Part shown: positions 51,924-64,000 of the stretch, one piece after another
How the letters are laid out: each line of letters opens with the position of its first letter
Numbering within the stretch: the stretch's first letter is position 1
Assembly (NCBI RefSeq): GCF_002804125.1
Contig: NZ_CP024966.1
Span: forward strand, 310,001-374,000
DNA from: Mesoplasma entomophilum
Lineage (GTDB): Bacteria > Bacillota_I > Bacilli_A > Mycoplasmatales > Mycoplasmataceae
DNA: 64,000 bases
Reading direction: 5' to 3'
Program-made: the position numbers and the translations under genes
The notes under the pieces: model-generated
Told to the model about the DNA's origin: nothing
The model's input: only the letters and a program-made list of their open reading frames with translations
Databases searched by the model: none

Positions 51924-52973
51924 ATGTTCCAATTATTAAAAGAATATGTTAATCAAAATAACAAAAAAGATAAAAGCAAATTAAATGAAATAAACGATAT
52001 AAAACCATATTTTACAAGTGGTTCAGGGATTAGCAGCCCTTCATTTTCAAAAGATTTAAATGAGGCTATTATTTATATTAGCAATCATAAAACTTCAAAT
52101 ATTAATAATAAGTATGAAGATATAGTAGGAATTAAACAAATAAAATATTTCGGTAGAGCAAATGATTGAAAAATCGATCAAGAAATTTATAAGCCCACAT
52201 CAAAAAATAAAGTAATGGAACTAGCATTTCAAAAAGAAAAAAAATTTAAATTGCATGTTTTTATAAAAAATAAACCTTCGCATTTTGTTTATTTAGGAGA
52301 ATACTACATTAATAATAAAATGTGAATATCTGATCTGCAAAATATGCAGTATCAATTACTGCCTCATTTTGAAAGCAAAAAAAGAGATAATTATTTAAGA
52401 AGCTTAGCAATGAATGATAAAAGCAATATAAAAAGTCATAAAACAATAATTGTGAAAGAAAATTTAGCGCAGAATGATACTTCTGAATTAGTTGAAATAT
52501 TAAGAGAAATTAAATATGCAGCTAATTATAATATAAAAGCATTTATAAATAATTCTTCGAAAACTTATGATGACGCAATAGACAAAATTCAGAAGTATAA
52601 TTTAATACATGAAGAACAAATAAGAACATTTAGCAAATCTTTTGAAAACAATAAAAATTTTATTGTTAAAGAAGGTAAATTTGCAGATTTAGTTATAAAA
52701 GATTTTTCAAAGAAAAAAATTGATATTTATGAATTCAAGACTGTTCATGACAAAAATATAATTGGACAATTAACAAAATCAATAGGACAATTATATTTTT
52801 ATGAATATTTGTTAAGAAAAGATTCAGATTTTTGGCAAGAAGAATATAAAGTTACTAAAAATATAGTTATGATTGAAGTTGAAAAAAATATAACTGATTT
52901 AAATTTTAATACAGTCAATAATTTTGTTGTAAATAATTCAGAAATGAATATAGAATGGAAGGAAGCATATTAA
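51924..52973 (+). CDS. Probable modification-dependent nuclease: SRA-like plus PD-(D/E)XK
   Basis: 349 aa. The N-terminal half (about residues 24-135) has the pattern of SRA/YDG-like base-reading domains in McrA-type and DUF3427 proteins: GSGISSPSFSKD, YFGRANDWKIDQEIYKP, then KFKLHVFIKNKPSHFVYLGEYYI. The C-terminal half has a PD-(D/E)XK core: FADLVIKD (D255), IYEFKT (E270, K272) and GQLYFYEYL after it. Together they suggest a type IV enzyme cutting modified phage DNA. The match is by eye. A TATAAT sits at 51904-51909. The stop overlaps the udk start by 1 base (TAATG), so the defence gene is coupled to udk. Confidence 0.62.
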
Positions 52974-53596
52974 TGAATAAAAAGGTTACTTTAATTTTAA
53001 TCGCTGGTGGAACAGCCTCAGGTAAAACAACAGTTGCTGACAGAATAGCTAATGAAATTTTAAAAGGCAAATCAGTAACTCATATTTCAATGGATAATTA
53101 TTATAAAGATTTTGGTGAATTAACTTTGGAAGAAAGAAGAAAAATAAATTTTGATCACCCAAATAGTGTTGATAGTGAATTACTTTTAAATGATTTACAA
53201 GCTTTAAAAGATTATCAACCAATTAAAGTTCCAGTTTATGATTTTAAAACTTCTTCAAGAACTAAAGAAACAATTACAGTTAAACCAAGTGATGTTGTAA
53301 TTCTTGATGGTATTTTTGCATTAGCAATCAAAGAAATTAGAAAACTTGGAGATATTAAAATATTTATTAAAACTGCTAATGATTTAAGATTCATTAGACG
53401 TTTACAAAGAGATGTAAATGAAAGAGGCAGAACTTTAGAAAGTGTTATTGATCAATACTTAAATGAAGTTAAGCCAATGCATGACGCATTTATTGGGCCA
53501 AGTATTGAATATGCTGATTTAATTATTCCTTATAAAGAAGGAAATGAAGTTGCCGTTGATTTAGTAGCAACTAAAATATTAACTTTGTTATCTTAA
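52973..53596 (+). CDS. udk: Uridine kinase
   Basis: Pyrimidine salvage enzyme that phosphorylates uridine and cytidine; 207 aa, typical. P-loop GGTASGKTT at residues 12-20, SMDNYYKDFGELTLEERRKINFDHPNS near 41, DGIFAL near 107 and RFIRRLQRDVNERGRTLESVIDQYL near 138 are diagnostic. The start overlaps the stop of the upstream nuclease gene; GGAAGGA in the end of that gene is the ribosome site. Insertion of the nuclease gene may have changed how udk is expressed. Confidence 0.96.
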   Translation: MNKKVTLILIAGGTASGKTTVADRIANEILKGKSVTHISMDNYYKDFGELTLEERRKINFDHPNSVDSELLLNDLQALKDYQPIKVPVYDFKTSSRTKETITVKPSDVVILDGIFALAIKEIRKLGDIKIFIKTANDLRFIRRLQRDVNERGRTLESVIDQYLNEVKPMHDAFIGPSIEYADLIIPYKEGNEVAVDLVATKILTLLS

Positions 53597-53718: not shown

Positions 53719-55551
53719 ATGAATTTTGATTTTTTAAAAAAATTACCAGAACACAAAGAAAAGGAACTTCTTATAGAAAATATAACTGCTATTGAAAAGA
53801 ATTTGGTTGATGATAAAGTAAAACATAGAATTAGAAATACAATGGAAATATTTTTTAAGACTTTTATACTAAATAAAAAGTTTAATAAATTAAAAGAACA
53901 TATTTTAATTGATTTTGTAAAAAGTATTGAAAAGAAAATAGATCATTCTGATTTTCAAGAATTGGAATTAACAGTTATATATTTATGAAGATTAGGTAAT
54001 CAAAATACTCATAGCAATAAAGTTGATATTTATAATTTTGACAGATCTTTAACAGATAATATTGCAGCGTTTAGAAGACTTCATTATTTAATTTCATTTC
54101 TAATGCACAAACATTTAGGTATTATATTTAATTTAAAATCTTTTGATGATTCAATCTATTTAAGAGATTATATGACCGTTGATTCTAAAGTTTTTAACAA
54201 TGATATTATTTTTGAAAATGAAAATTTAGTTAAAACTTTTAGTGTAAGTAACATAGGTATTGAATTATTTAAAATATTAGAAAATAAAAGTTCAATATTA
54301 ATTGATTCAACATTCACAAAAACAATTAGAAAAATACAATTAGTTTTAAAAAGCATTCTAAACTCAGGTAATAATAAAGCTCCATATTCATTAGGTACTA
54401 TTGGAATTGCAATAAATGAACATACAGATACGTATTTAGTTAATGGAAAGATGAGACTTCTTTTATATTTCTTTTCCTTAAAATCTTTAAGAAGTGAAAT
54501 AAAAGAAAGAGAAATGCAAGAATTAAAGTATTCAAAAAATATATCAACCATTTTCGAACCATCATTTGAAAATATTGAATATTTTAAATCTGAAAATAAT
54601 TTAGATGCGGTTAAAAGACAAGTTGATGACATAAATTTAATATTAAGTTCTCAACATACATCCTGAAGAAGTCTATGTGAAGAATTGAAAACACAAGAAA
54701 TTTTTGAAATTTATGAATGCATAAAGAATTTTATTTTTGAATTAACAGACGAAGAATTTTCAAATTTTGTTCTTGGCTTATTTCAATATAGTCAAATTTT
54801 TATGATTAACTTTAACAAAGATAAAATAAATAAAAATATTATTTCCAATTTCTTACAAGAAAATGATGATGTGATATTTCCAATACAGATTTTAAGAGGT
54901 GCTTTTAAAAATGATAGTAAAACTGAAAGTGATTTATTAAAAAGTAGCTATATTAAAAAAGAAAAAAATACTAAACAACTTGTTGCAGATGATTACATTA
55001 TTAGAAATAGAGGGAATTGAATTGATTTATTTAAAATGCAAAATAAATATTTAATTGATCCTGTTATTGAATGTTTAGTTAATGATAAAGATGAAACCTA
55101 TGCTTGATTATTCAGATATAAATATAATAATAAAGTATATCTTTTCTTTATGTTAACAAGAAATGATAATAAAGAATGCTATTTTGATTTTGAAGTATTT
55201 AATGAAATAGTTAATGAATATAAAGAAAGGTACAACGAAAATTTAGATTTTATTCCTTACTTAGGTTTTTTCTCTAAAATTGCATTAAATAGTTTTGAAA
55301 CGGATATTGAATATATTAATTTACGTTTTATAGAGCCAAAAGACTTTTGACAAGCATATTATAAAGAACCTGAATGTATAGATATCAAAAAAGCTTTAAT
55401 AAAGACTAACTTTATTAAGGAAGGGAAAACAACACATATTGGTGAAATTACACCGATATTAAAAGTTAATGAAAAATCAAATTTGTTAATAACAGAAAAT
55501 GATTTAGTAAAAGCAACTAGTTCAGTTTATAGGGTCAAATTTAAATACTAA
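53719..55551 (+). CDS. Unknown 610-aa protein of the AIPR operon
   Basis: Soluble protein. Around residues 90-135 it has YLWRLGNQNTHSNKVDIY followed by RSLTDNIAAFRRLHYLISFLMHKHLG, a pattern like the DUF4145 helical domain (R..GN..aH) found in type I restriction subunits and other defence proteins. The rest is not recognised; the C-terminus is beta-rich. GGATGG lies before the ATG. It starts the three-gene unit, with the small Cys-rich gene 16 bases downstream. Trp codons are TGA. It has its own space after the udk terminator, so the unit has an independent promoter. Confidence 0.65.
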
Positions 55552-55802: not shown

Positions 55803-57722
55803 ATGAAATTAAAATTTAATAGTACAATAGATAATAAAATGAGCATGGTAAGACATAATTTTAAAAGTGAATTAGATACTTTTTTCAGAGTTTATCGTGA
55901 TGAATATATTTATAATGAATATGAAGGAATTGAAAACGAAAAAGAATTTTTAAACTCAGGTAATTTAAAAATGATTTTCGAAAGCATTGATCAAGATTTA
56001 GAAATATTTCTTTTAAACGAATTAGATTTTTTATCTGAAGATGATCTTTTTAAAGCTATAAAAAAGGATATATCAAGTGATTTTATTCAATTTAAAAATA
56101 AAAATATGCAGGAAGTTAAATGATTTAATCATGCTTTAAGCCAAATAGAAAATTATGTTGAAAATAATTATATACCCAAATTAATATTTAATTTTAATTA
56201 TTTAAACAAATTACCTAATAAAATCTTTACAAACTTTATAAATATGCAAATAAAAGAACTTGAAGCATTATTTAGCGATATGTTTAATAAAAAAATTCAA
56301 GTTCAAATAAGAATATTAGGTTTCGCGCAATTAAATATCAAAACAATGCAATATATTTCAGAAGAAGGGGTTTATGGTAGAACAACTTTAGAATATTTAA
56401 AAACAACTGCAACAGCTGAAGGATCAGTTTTAAAATTTGGAGATACAAATGATGGCGTAATAACCAGATTAGCTGTTATTAAAGCTTCAAGCTTGAAGAA
56501 AATTTACAAGAAATTAGAAGAAAATTATGATCTTAATAGTTTATTTTCTTGAAATGTAAGAGAATATTTTAAAGATAACAAAGTTGATAAAAAAATAAAA
56601 AAAACTTTGGAAAATAAGCCTAATGATTTTTTTACTTTTAATAATGGTTTAACAATAATAGGAGAAAACATTGAAAGAGATGGAACAAATATTAAAATTG
56701 ATAAAATGTGTATTTTAAATGGTGCTCAAACAACAACACTTATAAGCACAATTGATGATGATAAACTTGAAGATGTTGGAGTTTTTGCAAAAATAATTGA
56801 CATTAGTTCATTTAAAAATGATGAAGAAAAGCAAGAATATATTTCTTCTTTATCTCAAGCTTCAAATAACCAAAAACCAGTGAAAACACAAGATCTTCTT
56901 TCTCAAGAGCAAAAAATAAGAGAGTACATCAAAGGTTTTAATTCTAAAGTATCAGGTAATGATGAATTAAAAATTATATTTAAGAGTAAAAAAGGATCGA
57001 TAGTTGAAAAAAATAAAGATGTTAAAATATTGACTGTTGAAAGTTTCTTGAAAAATGCATTATGATCTGTTTGTTTACAACCTGGTTTAGCAAGAAGTGG
57101 TTTTGGAGATTTTTTAAATAAAGATCAAGCATCTACAAATAGTTTTGAAAAAATATTTAGTATTTTTGATTTATTAGACAATAAAAAAGAAAGCAATTTA
57201 TTTTTAATTAAAGATATTTTAGAAATGGATGCAATGATGAATTCAATTAAGTCTAAAATGATTAGAGAGTTTAAGTCAAAAATTGAAATGACCACTATTG
57301 AAAGAATTAAACAGAATACTTTGTTTAATATTGAAGTACTTAATAATGCTAAATTGTTTATTCAGTCAACTATTTTTTACTTATGAATTCATTTAAAATT
57401 TCCCGAGATAGAAAACGAAACACTTGATATAAACAAAATTGATCAATTATTCTCTTTTTACAAGAAAAATAAAGTAATGGATAGTATATTCAAGAAAAAC
57501 AGAAATACTGAAAATGATTTAGATATTCGATTTGAAACTTTTTTTAATGTCGTTTTTCTTAAAATTGTTGAAATTATTAAAGAAATTAAAAGCTCAAGTG
57601 TTTCTGTAACCAACTTCACAAAAACGCAATCATCATTTAAAACATTCATTAAAGAATTTGTAAATGAAATAGAGGCAGAACCCGAAATTTTAGAAAAATG
57701 TAATTTATTATTTAATTTATAA
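55803..57722 (+). CDS. AIPR family protein (abortive phage resistance)
   Basis: 639 aa. The family core is clear: FSWNVREYFKDNKVDKKIKKTLENKPNDFFTFNNGLTIIGENI (about residues 249-287) and ILNGAQTTTLISTI (about 301-314), then SQASNNQKPVKTQDLLSQEQ. These are the AIPR (PF10592-type) hallmarks of proteins linked to abortive infection in several bacteria. Residues 1-140 and the C-terminal 200 are helical and less conserved. It starts 1 base after the Zn-protein stop, so the three genes are coupled. Trp is TGA. The biochemical action of AIPR proteins is not firmly known. Confidence 0.8.
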
Positions 57723-57724
57723 TT

Positions 57725-57752
57725 AAAAAAGCATAGTAAAAATGCTTTTTTC
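57725..57752 (+). terminator. Terminator after the AIPR gene
   Basis: Stem AAAAAAGCAT/ATGCTTTTTT around AGTAAAA, followed by CTTTT. Confidence 0.85.
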
Positions 57753-57804: not shown

Positions 57805-59772
<1,968 letters not shown>

Positions 59773-59789
59773 AAAGAGATGCATAAAAA

Positions 59790-61727
59790 ATGAAACCTAC
59801 ACAAAATGTTGAATCAAGTCCTAAATTAATACCAGTGCGAAATCTTTTAGAGAATCTTGAAAATGGAAAATTAGAATTGCCTATTTTTCAAAGAAATAAA
59901 GTATGAACTAATAAAATGAAGGAAAGATTTAAAGAATCACTTTCTAAAAATTACCCTTTTGGTTCAATATTAATTCATCAAAAAGCATATGATGAAAGAC
60001 AGTTACTTATAGACGGTTATCAAAGGTTATCGACAATAAAAGAGTTTTGTGAGCAACCATTTAATTCTTTAAAATGGGAAGAATTTAATATTAATGATGA
60101 TCAACTACTTGATATATTAAAAAATGAAAAAATAATGAAAAAATTTAAAAATCAAATTATTTATAAGTTTCAAATTGAAAGAAATGCAACAACTTATCAA
60201 ATTATTAAAAATGTTTTAAATGATATTATTTTAAAACAAAAGAATAGTGATCAATTTAATATTTTGCAACTAGCTGATAAAATTGAACCACTTATATCTT
60301 TTAAAATAGATGAAATAAAAAGAAAAAGTGAAAATTTGAAAGATACAACTATTCCTGTCATAATAGTGACAACATTTGATCAACATGAAGTTATTGCGGA
60401 TATATTCACAAAACTTAATACTTCAGGACAGAAGTTATCTAAATATGAAATAGCAGCAGCTGATTGACAAGACATTCAAATTAAAATAAATGATTATAAA
60501 AATGATTCATTTTCAAAACAAATAGTGGATAAAATAAAAGAAAAGTATAAATACTACGAGGAAAACAAAAATAAAACGGGTATTCAAATGAACAAAAAAG
60601 CATCTGACTTAGATAAAGATGCAAGCATTGATCTATTTGAATTATTATTTGGTTTTTCAAAAGTTCTTGAAGACATAAGTAATAATTTGTTTTTGCCTAC
60701 TAAAAATAAAAAAATTGATATTTTTGAAGAAGGTTTTGAAATTATAAATTATTGCATGGGTGGAGTAAATAAAAACTTTGATAAACTTAATAAGAAATTT
60801 ATTGAATTTTTTAATATAAAAAATAATAATATTGAGCTTAATGAGATAGTTAGTTTATTAAAATATGTTAAAACTACTGTTAAAGCTGTAAATGACTACT
60901 TTGGTCATGATTCAAACAAGATATTATTAGGCTCATTAAATAATAAAAATATTGTTTGAGGAACTAACGAGAAAGAAGATGCGGGAAGTTTATTAAAACC
61001 AAGTAAATTTCAATCAATTTCATTTGTAGTCGAAATTTTTAGAACAATATTTAGAAATAACAATAAATTTGAAAATTACAATGAAAAATTTGATCAAGAA
61101 ATAACTAAAGAAATACAAAATAATTTTTACCTAGCTCAGCACTATGTATATGATACTTTTAATGATTTATTTAGTAAGTCATCAAATAAAACAGTTGATG
61201 ACATAATTTCATCCAACATTTTTAGATATAATAAACCAATTGAAAAAGGGGAAATGCTTTATTCAGTCGAGAAAGTTATAAACAATTTTAATGTGAAATC
61301 CAACAATAACAAGAGCAAAAGGCCAAAGTTTGATAAATCAATTCGAATACTTATATCTATAACTTATCAAAATATTCTAAGTACAACTTATAACATTGAT
61401 AGTTATCACATAGATCATTTAATACCATTTAAAATAAGTGAAAATAAGAATGAAAAAATTGATATTAATAGATTAGGAAATCTTGCATTAATAGATTCGG
61501 AATCCAATTCAATAAAATCTGATAAAGATTTGTATAAACTTATTAAAGGTGAAATTTTTAGTACAGAAGAAGTTGAAAATTGAACTTTTATTAATAGAAA
61601 TGAATTTGGATTATTTAGTTTTGAAGGTAAAGAATGAAAGCAAATTGAAAAAGATTTACAAAATATGTCAGAAATACGAGAAAGCAGATACATTGAAAAG
61701 TTTATGAAATTTTGAAAATATAGTTAG
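59790..61727 (+). CDS. DUF262/DUF1524 (GmrSD-type) nuclease between parE and parC
   Basis: 645 aa. DUF262 domain: [10 protein letters not shown] near residue 31 and [14 protein letters not shown] near 72 (the IPxFQR and DGQQR motifs), [20 protein letters not shown] near 206. C-terminal HNH of DUF1524 type: YHIDHLIPF (H540-D542-H543) followed by [11 protein letters not shown] (N564) and N573. DUF262 plus DUF1524 in one chain is the GmrSD layout, a type IV NTP-dependent enzyme cutting modified phage DNA. It begins 17 bases after parE and ends 23 bases before parC. Trp is mostly TGA with a TGG at 60077. A standalone restriction gene, not a topoisomerase partner. Confidence 0.85.
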
Positions 61728-61750
61728 AAATCAAGAAAGGAGAAATATAC

Positions 61751-64000
61751 ATGGCAAAAAAAATAGATAATTCAAATATTGAATCTGAAAAAGGAATAAT
61801 TAGTTATGCTTTAGAAGACTTAATGGGTGAACGTTTTGGTAGATATGCTAAATACATTATTCAAGAACGTGCATTACCAGATGCTAGAGATGGTTTAAAA
61901 CCAGTTCAAAGACGTATTTTATATGCAATGAATGAATTAAATCTAACTTATGATAAACCATATAAAAAATCAGCTAGAGTAGTTGGAGAAGTTATTGGTA
62001 AGTACCACCCACATGGTGATACATCAATTTATGATGCAATGGTTCGTATGAGTCAATGATGAAAACTAGGAATGCCTTTAATTGATATGCAAGGTAATAA
62101 CGGATCTATTGATGGTGATAGTGCAGCTGCAATGCGTTATACTGAAACTCGTTTAGCAAAAATTAGTGATTTAATGTTAGATGACTTAAATAAAAATACA
62201 GTTAAGTTTGCACCTAACTTTGATGATAGTGAAAAAGAACCAACTGTTTTACCAAGTTATTTCCCTAACATTCTAGTTAATGGATCAACAGGAATTGCTG
62301 CTGGTTATGCTACAAACATGCCTCCACATAACCTTGGTGAAATTATTGATGCAACTATTAAATTAATTAGAACTCCAAATACTAGAATAGATACTATTTT
62401 AGAAATCGTTAAAGGACCAGATTTCCCAACTGGAGGAACTGTTCAAGGTCGTAATGGTATTAAAGATGCATTTACAACAGGAAAAGGTAAAGTTATTGTT
62501 AATTCAAAATGACATGAAGAAGATAATAACATCATTATTGATGAAATCCCTTATGAAGTTGTTAAACAAGATTTAGTTAAAAAAATTGGTGATGTTATTG
62601 ACGCTAATCCAGGTTTAGGGATCTTAGAAGTAAGAGATGAAACTGATCGAAATGGATTAAGAATAGCAATTGATTTAAGTGATAAAGCTAATTTAGATAC
62701 AGTTAGAAAATTTTTATTTAAATCAACTCCATTAAGTATTTCATATAACTATAACAATGTGGCTATTGTTGATTTACAACCTAAACAATTAGGAATTATT
62801 GAATTAATTCATGCATATATTGCTCACTATAAAGAAGTATTTACATTTAGAACTCAATTTGATTTAAATAAAGCTGAAAAACGTTTAGAAATTATTTTAG
62901 GTTTAATTAAAGCAATGAGTATTTTAGATCAAGTTATCTCAGTAATTAGAAGTTCAACAAATAGAAGTGATGCTATTGAAAACTTAGTTTCAAAATTTAT
63001 ATTCTCTCAACCTCAAGCAGCAGCTATTGTTGATATGAGACTATATCGTTTAACTTCAACTGATGTGGTTAAACTACAAAATGAAAAAGAAGAATTAGAT
63101 GTAAACATTGCTAAGTTAAAAGCTATTTTAAATAGTGAAGAAGTAATGGATAATGAAATTATTAATCGTTTACGAGAAGTTAAAAAACAATTCCAAACTC
63201 CAAGAAGATCAACTGTTGAAGATAGCATTGAAAACTTAGATGTTGAGCAAAAAGAAGTATTAGTTGAACATGAATATAACTTATGAATTTCAAAAGATGG
63301 ATATTTAAAAGCTATTGAATCAAAACTAATTAGTAAAAATGATCCTGCTGTATTTGGTAGAAAACCAAACGATATGTGAATTGCAGCTGGAGAAGTAAGT
63401 AACTTACAACATTTAATCTTAATCACAAATAAAGGAACATACTATTCAATTCCTTTATATAAATTACCAATGAGTAAATGAAGAGACATGGGAGTTCATG
63501 TTAACACTATTGCTACAATGGATCCAAGTGAACATATTGTTAGTGCATTTGTAGTTAAAGATTTTGCTGAAGCTTTACAACAAATCTTAATCACAAGTAA
63601 AAATGGAAACATTAAACGTATACCAGTTAAAGATTTAGAAACAAAAATCTTTACACGTGCATTTAGAATTATGAAATTAGATGCAGCTGATGAAATTGTT
63701 AGTGCTAGTCTAATTACTTCAAAAACTAGAACTTGTGGAATTATTACAAGAAATGGTTATGGGGTAAGATACCATATTGAAGATATTCCTGTTCAAGGAA
63801 CTAATTCAAAAGGAGTTAAAGCAGCTAATCTAAAAGAAGATTACATAGTTGCAGGTTTAGGATTAACAAGTGAAGATACTATTATGTATCTAACTGAAAA
63901 AGATGGAGTTAAAAAATTCAGAAATGAAGATTTACCAATCTATATTAGACCAAAACGTGGAGTAAGAGTATTACCAGAACGTAAACGTGGAACTGAATAC
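61751..64000 (+). CDS. parC: DNA topoisomerase IV subunit A, 3' end beyond window
   Basis: The strand-cutting subunit; 750 residues visible and the frame is open to the end. [31 protein letters not shown], then [17 protein letters not shown] near residue 86 and the active-site [11 protein letters not shown] with Tyr130. The residue equivalent to the quinolone-determining Ser80 of other ParC proteins is Thr91, and the equivalent of Glu84 is Asp95. AAGAAAGGAG precedes the ATG. The C-terminal beta-propeller repeats begin near residue 500. It pairs with parE; the insertion leaves both reading frames intact. Confidence 0.96.

Follow-up and report, generated by a model that had tools for sequence, protein, structure and literature searches.

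A putative DUF262-HNH nuclease gene in the topoisomerase IV operon of Mesoplasma, probably cargo of a defence hotspot

Why should a gene for a putative nuclease lie between parE and parC, the genes for the two subunits of topoisomerase IV? The question arises in a window of 64,000 nucleotides (the whole stretch of DNA analysed) from the 848-kb genome of a small, insect-associated mollicute, Mesoplasma entomophilum (G000), which uses genetic code 4 (TGA = Trp). An initial annotation had proposed that a complete DUF262/DUF1524 HNH gene is inserted in this operon, and that expression with an essential gene pair could keep it from being lost and set its dosage. Most descriptions of defence hotspots place them next to tRNA genes, integrases or core genes. 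The explanation that we favour, and consider probable, is that this gene is cargo of a defence hotspot that landed in the parE–parC spacer, a permissive site within an operon. The parts of the unit are as follows.

57725–57751, plus strand: hairpin with a T-run and a 10-bp perfect stem, a likely terminator, in the interval between an AIPR gene and parE (−7.7 kcal/mol, z −1.7)
57829–59772, plus strand: parE, topoisomerase IV subunit B, 647 aa under code 4 (TIGR01058, 921 bits, above cut-off)
59773–59789, plus strand: 17-bp spacer with an AAAGAG ribosome-binding-site-like motif and no hairpin, read from the sequence
59790–61727, plus strand: DUF262-HNH (GmrSD/BrxU-like) putative nuclease gene, 645 aa (PF03235, E = 1e-22; PADLOC PD-T4-2_A, NsnA, PDC-M55C and HEC-05/06)
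59838–60461, plus strand: DUF262 / GmrSD_N domain, residues 17–224 (Pfam)
60012–60026, plus strand: DGYQR motif, residues 75–79, at the position of DGQQR in GmrSD
61413–61517, plus strand: HNH-type motif region DHLIP...LGNL...N..K, residues 542–576 (conserved residues and PDB profile matches)
61736–61750, plus strand: AAAGGAGAAATATAC, the parE–parC spacer of empty sites including the parC ribosome-binding site, kept at 15 of 15 positions
61751–64000, plus strand: parC, topoisomerase IV subunit A, of which the 5′ 750 codons lie in the window (TIGR01061, 910 bits, above cut-off)

The nuclease gene begins 17 bp after the parE stop codon and is separated from parC by 23 bp, with all three genes on the same strand and both spacers exactly as first reported. 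At 908 codons in the full genome, parC is directly followed by a strong terminator hairpin (L144:16474-16510, −16.3 kcal/mol, z −5.8), and the weaker hairpin at 57725–57751 is likely a terminator that sets the parE unit apart from the defence genes upstream. RNA folding found no terminator hairpin at either junction of the nuclease gene, nor did we find, just upstream of it, an extended −10 promoter of the M. florum type, which is TAWAAT with an extension (PMC7745072). A scan for sigma-70-type promoters returned fewer matches than shuffled sequences did, and the sole TGNTAWAAT lies at 60275, inside the nuclease gene itself. Because neither a terminator nor a good promoter separates the nuclease gene from its neighbours, the simplest and expected reading is that parE, the nuclease gene and parC are likely co-transcribed as one transcript. 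The earlier proposal of co-transcription with the essential pair is in this respect supported by the operon layout, as a prediction from sequence.

Is the gene intact, and what would it encode? Under translation table 11 it is broken by TGA codons, and under code 4 it forms a single open reading frame of 645 aa; we rejected a frameshifted pseudogene since all table-11 stops inside the gene are TGA. A sequencing or annotation artefact was likewise rejected, as the same arrangement is found in an independently sequenced genome (G006), and so was prophage cargo, as the junction contains no phage gene. The GC content of the gene is 22.9% vs 29–30% for parE and parC, and resembles that of the adjoining defence genes. 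The sole Pfam match of its product (hereafter the slot protein) is PF03235 (GmrSD_N; 81.7 bits vs a gathering cut-off of 33.2, E = 1e-22), with no match to PF07510 (GmrSD_C/DUF1524) at E < 0.1, and the PADLOC matches listed above, to other DUF262 defence proteins, are weak. The HNH assignment is accordingly drawn from conserved motif residues and C-terminal profile matches, not from PF07510. The C-terminal part reads I-D-H-L-I-P ... L-G-N-L ... N..K; in an alignment of 13 relatives H543, N564, N573 and K576 are invariant and the D542-H543 motif is kept, as are D75, G76, Q78 and R79 of the nucleotide motif, which are also invariant, and IDGYQR is unchanged in all three slot proteins described below. 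A profile built from the 13 relatives finds BrxU (7p9k, E 2e-18) as the best solved-structure match of its N-terminal part, and its C-terminal part matches HNH stretches of PDB 20yv, Cas9 and SspE. The AlphaFold2 model, built on a three-sequence alignment, is poor (pLDDT 51, pTM 0.40) and unusable as structural support. Of the complete DUF262/DUF1524 HNH gene first described, the intact 645-aa frame and the DUF262 domain thus stand, and the HNH part is read from a divergent motif, with PF07510 unmatched; neither the nucleotide motif nor the HNH motif has been lost in the window protein or its two slot relatives.

The slot protein resembles the GmrSD type IV restriction enzymes in being a single chain with an N-terminal DUF262 domain above the Pfam cut-off and a C-terminal D/E-H...N...N...K motif, encoded among defence genes, and its C-terminus agrees with the E/D-H-N-N nuclease motif of GmrD (PMC4619093). 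It differs from them in carrying DGYQR rather than DGQQR, (I/V)DGQQR being conserved in nearly 100% of the GmrSD family (PMC4619093), and DHLIPF rather than (E/D)H(I/L/V)xPQ. Several canonical GmrSD proteins (DGQQR, EHI.PQ) are also encoded in these genera and form a different branch, and a comparison of their profile with that of the slot protein's family gave an alignment limited to the N-terminal domain. Judged by its motifs, the slot protein is a DUF262-HNH protein of a DG(Y/L)QR branch apart from canonical DGQQR GmrSD, and a divergent relative because PF07510 is unmatched and DGQQR has become DGYQR; as DGYQR replaces DGQQR and Pfam misses DUF1524, specificity for glc-HMC DNA, whose NTP-stimulated cleavage typifies GmrSD, should not be assumed. 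The DUF262 N-terminus is also shared with BrxU (PDB 7p9k/7p9m), the best structural match of the family profile, although the window protein alone matches it weakly (E 0.3), and no BREX gene was seen among the annotated neighbours at this locus. The HNH region of the profile aligns weakly (E 0.002) to residues 635–687 of SspE, a phosphorothioation-sensing nickase, and no ssp genes were seen next to the nuclease gene.

How unusual is a gene in this position? The assumption of near-universal adjacency of parE and parC does not hold for this family. Across 60 genomes of the family, match-to-match gaps between parE and parC are < 250 bp in 19, 0.85–1.1 kb in 38 and ∼2.05 kb in three, the last being the cases with a GmrSD-like gene. 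The gaps of ∼1 kb mostly hold an unrelated gene: with few exceptions, the genomes examined in this class have a conserved gene for a protein of 296–342 aa in the slot, belonging to one divergent family for which no Pfam or NCBIfam match was found. The examples are L161–L167 and L173–L175, from Spiroplasma-type genera, and most of them have this gene (e.g. L165:2856-3851, minus strand). The family thus often has a gene in this position, and in the Spiroplasma-type genera the 296–342 aa gene would be a third, as yet uncharacterised, component of the topoisomerase IV operon.

Within Mesoplasma, the arrangement is unusual. Five of the six other Mesoplasma species (G001, G002, G003, G004, G005) have an empty 15-bp parE–parC site, for example TAG-AAAGGAGAAATATAC-ATG, with a spacer identical to the 15 bp of the window in G001, G003 and G004; the same 15 bp are kept directly before parC in the occupied sites of G000 and G006. 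A scarless empty site is found even in the closest relative, G003, whose ParE is 99.7% identical and which is the sister of G000 in the parE+parC tree (support 100). Related occupants fill the same slot in M. grammopterae (G006, 53% identical) and M. photuris (G027, 37% identical), and the reading frame is intact in all three occupied sites. The three slot proteins form one clade (UFBoot 100), and this lineage is restricted to the three slots among 320 genomes of the order, the next match being 28% identical and located elsewhere. In G006 the slot gene ends in ...AACTAG followed by the same 15 bp, so that the parE terminus of empty sites is reproduced, and the final codons of parE itself are altered; in M. 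photuris the insert has the 13-mer AAAACTAGAAAGG on either side. The left insertion points differ between G000 and G006, which suggests separate insertion events, although function alone would lead one to expect some short identities around stop codons and ribosome-binding sites.

The occupants also differ from their flanks in divergence. Between G000 and G006, dS is 1.22 for the slot gene, a saturated value to be compared with caution, vs 0.11 for parE and 0.17 for parC; two other neighbours, udk (0.51) and rsmE (0.33), also exceed parE and parC, and among all of these the slot gene is the outlier. Between G000 and G027 the slot gene has a dS of 1.04 vs 0.63–0.75 for the flanks. Because the slot-gene dS so far exceeds that of parE and parC between close species, the occupants appear not to have been simply inherited with their flanks, and simple descent fits poorly. 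A profile of local divergence found no elevated tract in parC beside the slot, and hence no sign of a divergent donor flank. The three occupied sites would be compatible both with exchange of slot alleles via the parE/parC flanks and with independent insertions of one lineage. Upstream of parE, the AIPR gene of G000 and that of G003 (window 55803-57722 vs L147:10762-12681) share 84% identity with a dS of 0.585, compared with 0.05–0.17 for neighbouring genes, and here local allele replacement appears to have taken place even between sister species.

Where might such a gene have come from? The region upstream of parE in the window contains the following features.

52955–53596, plus strand: udk-like kinase gene, a conserved hotspot landmark that precedes parE in most of the relatives examined
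53719–55551, plus strand: gene for a 610-aa protein, hotspot cargo, without a Pfam, PADLOC or NCBIfam match
55803–57722, plus strand: AIPR-family gene (AbiU/MzaE-like), cargo upstream of parE (PF10592, E 3e-27; PADLOC AbiU, 7e-22)

The core genes rsmE, udk, parE and parC are conserved as flanks in G000–G006, and the cargo that they enclose differs. In the interval between rsmE/udk and parE, G001 has genes for an HNH restriction enzyme, a C5 methylase, a further HNH protein, and MzaB-like and Z1 (MzaC-like) proteins; G002 has an Eco57I methylase and an AIPR gene; G003 the 610-aa gene and an AIPR gene; G004 MutH and a C5 methylase (ahead of udk it also has a second C5 methylase and a GmrSD of 835 aa); G006 an NgoFVII-helicase, a C5 methylase and GmrSD; G027 a C5 methylase and an HNH type IV-like gene; and G032 an AAA/OLD-like gene. 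Defence genes are enriched here over the rest of the genome: in the Mesoplasma-clade genera, all ten C5 methylase genes and 14 of 17 GmrSD_N genes fall within 25 kb of parE, where ∼6% would be expected by chance, although the test treats related genomes as independent and its P values overstate the case. No integrase was seen in the hotspot intervals examined. Fixed core-gene flanks with restriction or defence cargo that varies by strain or species are likewise known from the defence hotspots of E. coli (PMC10121019), the Listeria immigration control region (PMC10059834) and the IF2-dnaJ variable locus of M. florum (PMC5893858). The present hotspot is unlike these in that its flanks are rsmE, udk, parE and parC, and in that one cargo gene lies inside an essential two-gene unit and not beside it. 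The nuclease gene is best explained as cargo of this defence hotspot.

Several further genes of the region deserve mention. The 610-aa gene (53719-55551) has the AIPR gene as a near neighbour in G000 as well as in G003, and is possibly an unknown defence partner. At 51924-52973 the window encodes a 349-aa protein without a family match, 66–97% identical in G002 and G003, in which a DLVI...YEFK stretch resembles, by eye, a PD-(D/E)XK nuclease motif. A C5-methylase gene stands in tandem with a canonical GmrSD of 835–837 aa before udk in several species (L148:3850-7753, L142:5564-10090); a modification-dependent nuclease would be an odd companion for a C5 methylase, and the two may form a restriction-modification system by themselves. 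An HSP90-type ATPase (MzaB-like) and a Z1-domain helicase (MzaC-like) recur together upstream of parE in three species (L145:4125-7936, L152:6412-9281, L154:8790-12570). In G005 the interval upstream of parE (L149:1-12300) is full of broken reading frames, among them what is left of GmrSD and C5 methylase genes, and represents a decayed hotspot.

The initial annotation had read the arrangement as a possible retention strategy, with the essential operon guarding the nuclease gene from loss and setting its dosage. Tight spacing, the lack of an internal terminator and an intact frame in every occupied slot would agree with this, as would the stops that riddle the upstream hotspot genes of G005; however, gene decay is general in the genome of G005 (57 pseudogenes, should it be E. 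melaleucae; PMC6117150), sites are empty and scarless in the sister species G003 and four other Mesoplasma species, and the occupants turn over, with a dS of 1.22 vs 0.11–0.17 in flanks that change more slowly. The empty sites leave the retention hypothesis unsupported, and we regard it as quite unlikely. The decay of the hotspot in the related species G005, together with the AT-rich and strongly divergent sequence of the slot gene, could also be taken as signs of a recently acquired passenger gene that has no function and is heading for decay. This we consider very unlikely, given 645 open codons, catalytic motifs intact in all three species, and a dN/dS of ∼0.3 between G000 and G006 (a pair with saturated dS) that points to purifying selection.

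Two further readings would make the gene a long-standing part of the operon. It might be an ancestral third gene of the Mesoplasma clade, repeatedly lost and fast-evolving where kept, without horizontal exchange: the topology ((G000,G006),G027) agrees with the species relationships, the clade is found in the slot only, and the G000–G027 dS of 1.04 is only ∼1.5 times that of the flanks. Against such descent, the synonymous divergence between G000 and G006 is 7–11 times that of the flanks, which protein-level selection alone does not produce, several clean losses within the genus would be needed, and the left junctions of G000 and G006 differ, so that this reading too seems unlikely. We judge it highly improbable that the slot protein is a functional partner of topoisomerase IV, for instance one that senses topoisomerase inhibition or phage-caused DNA damage, with the Spiroplasma slot gene as an analogous partner. 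The slot is indeed filled in most of the family, by the ∼300–340 aa gene in Spiroplasma-type genera and by the three GmrSD-like genes, but most Mesoplasma species lack any slot gene, a hotspot of unrelated defence genes explains the place more simply, and no topoisomerase-interacting motif was found in the slot protein, nor is one known for it to our knowledge.

On the reading that we favour, the slot gene is predicted to encode an enzyme of the broad GmrSD/BrxU/SspE kind, most likely anti-phage or directed against other foreign DNA, in which an N-terminal NTP-binding sensor domain would license the C-terminal HNH nuclease. A cargo gene would have landed in the 15-bp parE–parC spacer of the window genome, leaving parE intact and keeping the parC ribosome-binding site, whereas in M. 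grammopterae and M. photuris the point of entry would be the parE stop codon or its immediate vicinity; entry was possibly via homologous or short-homology recombination at stop-codon and ribosome-binding-site sequence. Expression of the nuclease is probably from a parE–nuclease–parC transcript, in which its gene takes the middle place, and the essential operon probably serves as a permissive, constitutively transcribed landing site, not as a safeguard against loss.

A bolder reading, and the most interesting one, is that of an integrase-free exchange slot in an essential operon. The parE–parC junction of Mesoplasma and its relatives may be a dedicated slot, in which a single slot-restricted nuclease lineage is swapped between species by recombination via the conserved parE/parC flanks, a scarless ‘docking site’ for defence alleles; we hold this to be possible but doubtful. 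In these genomes, cargo appears to have entered an essential two-gene unit repeatedly without breaking either neighbour. These near-minimal genomes, kin of the tractable model M. florum, would offer a simple system in which to study the movement of defence genes without mobile-element machinery, and in which to ask whether essential operons serve as reliable promoters. In the Spiroplasma-type genera, moreover, the comparison brings out a third gene, between parE and parC, that had so far gone unannotated.
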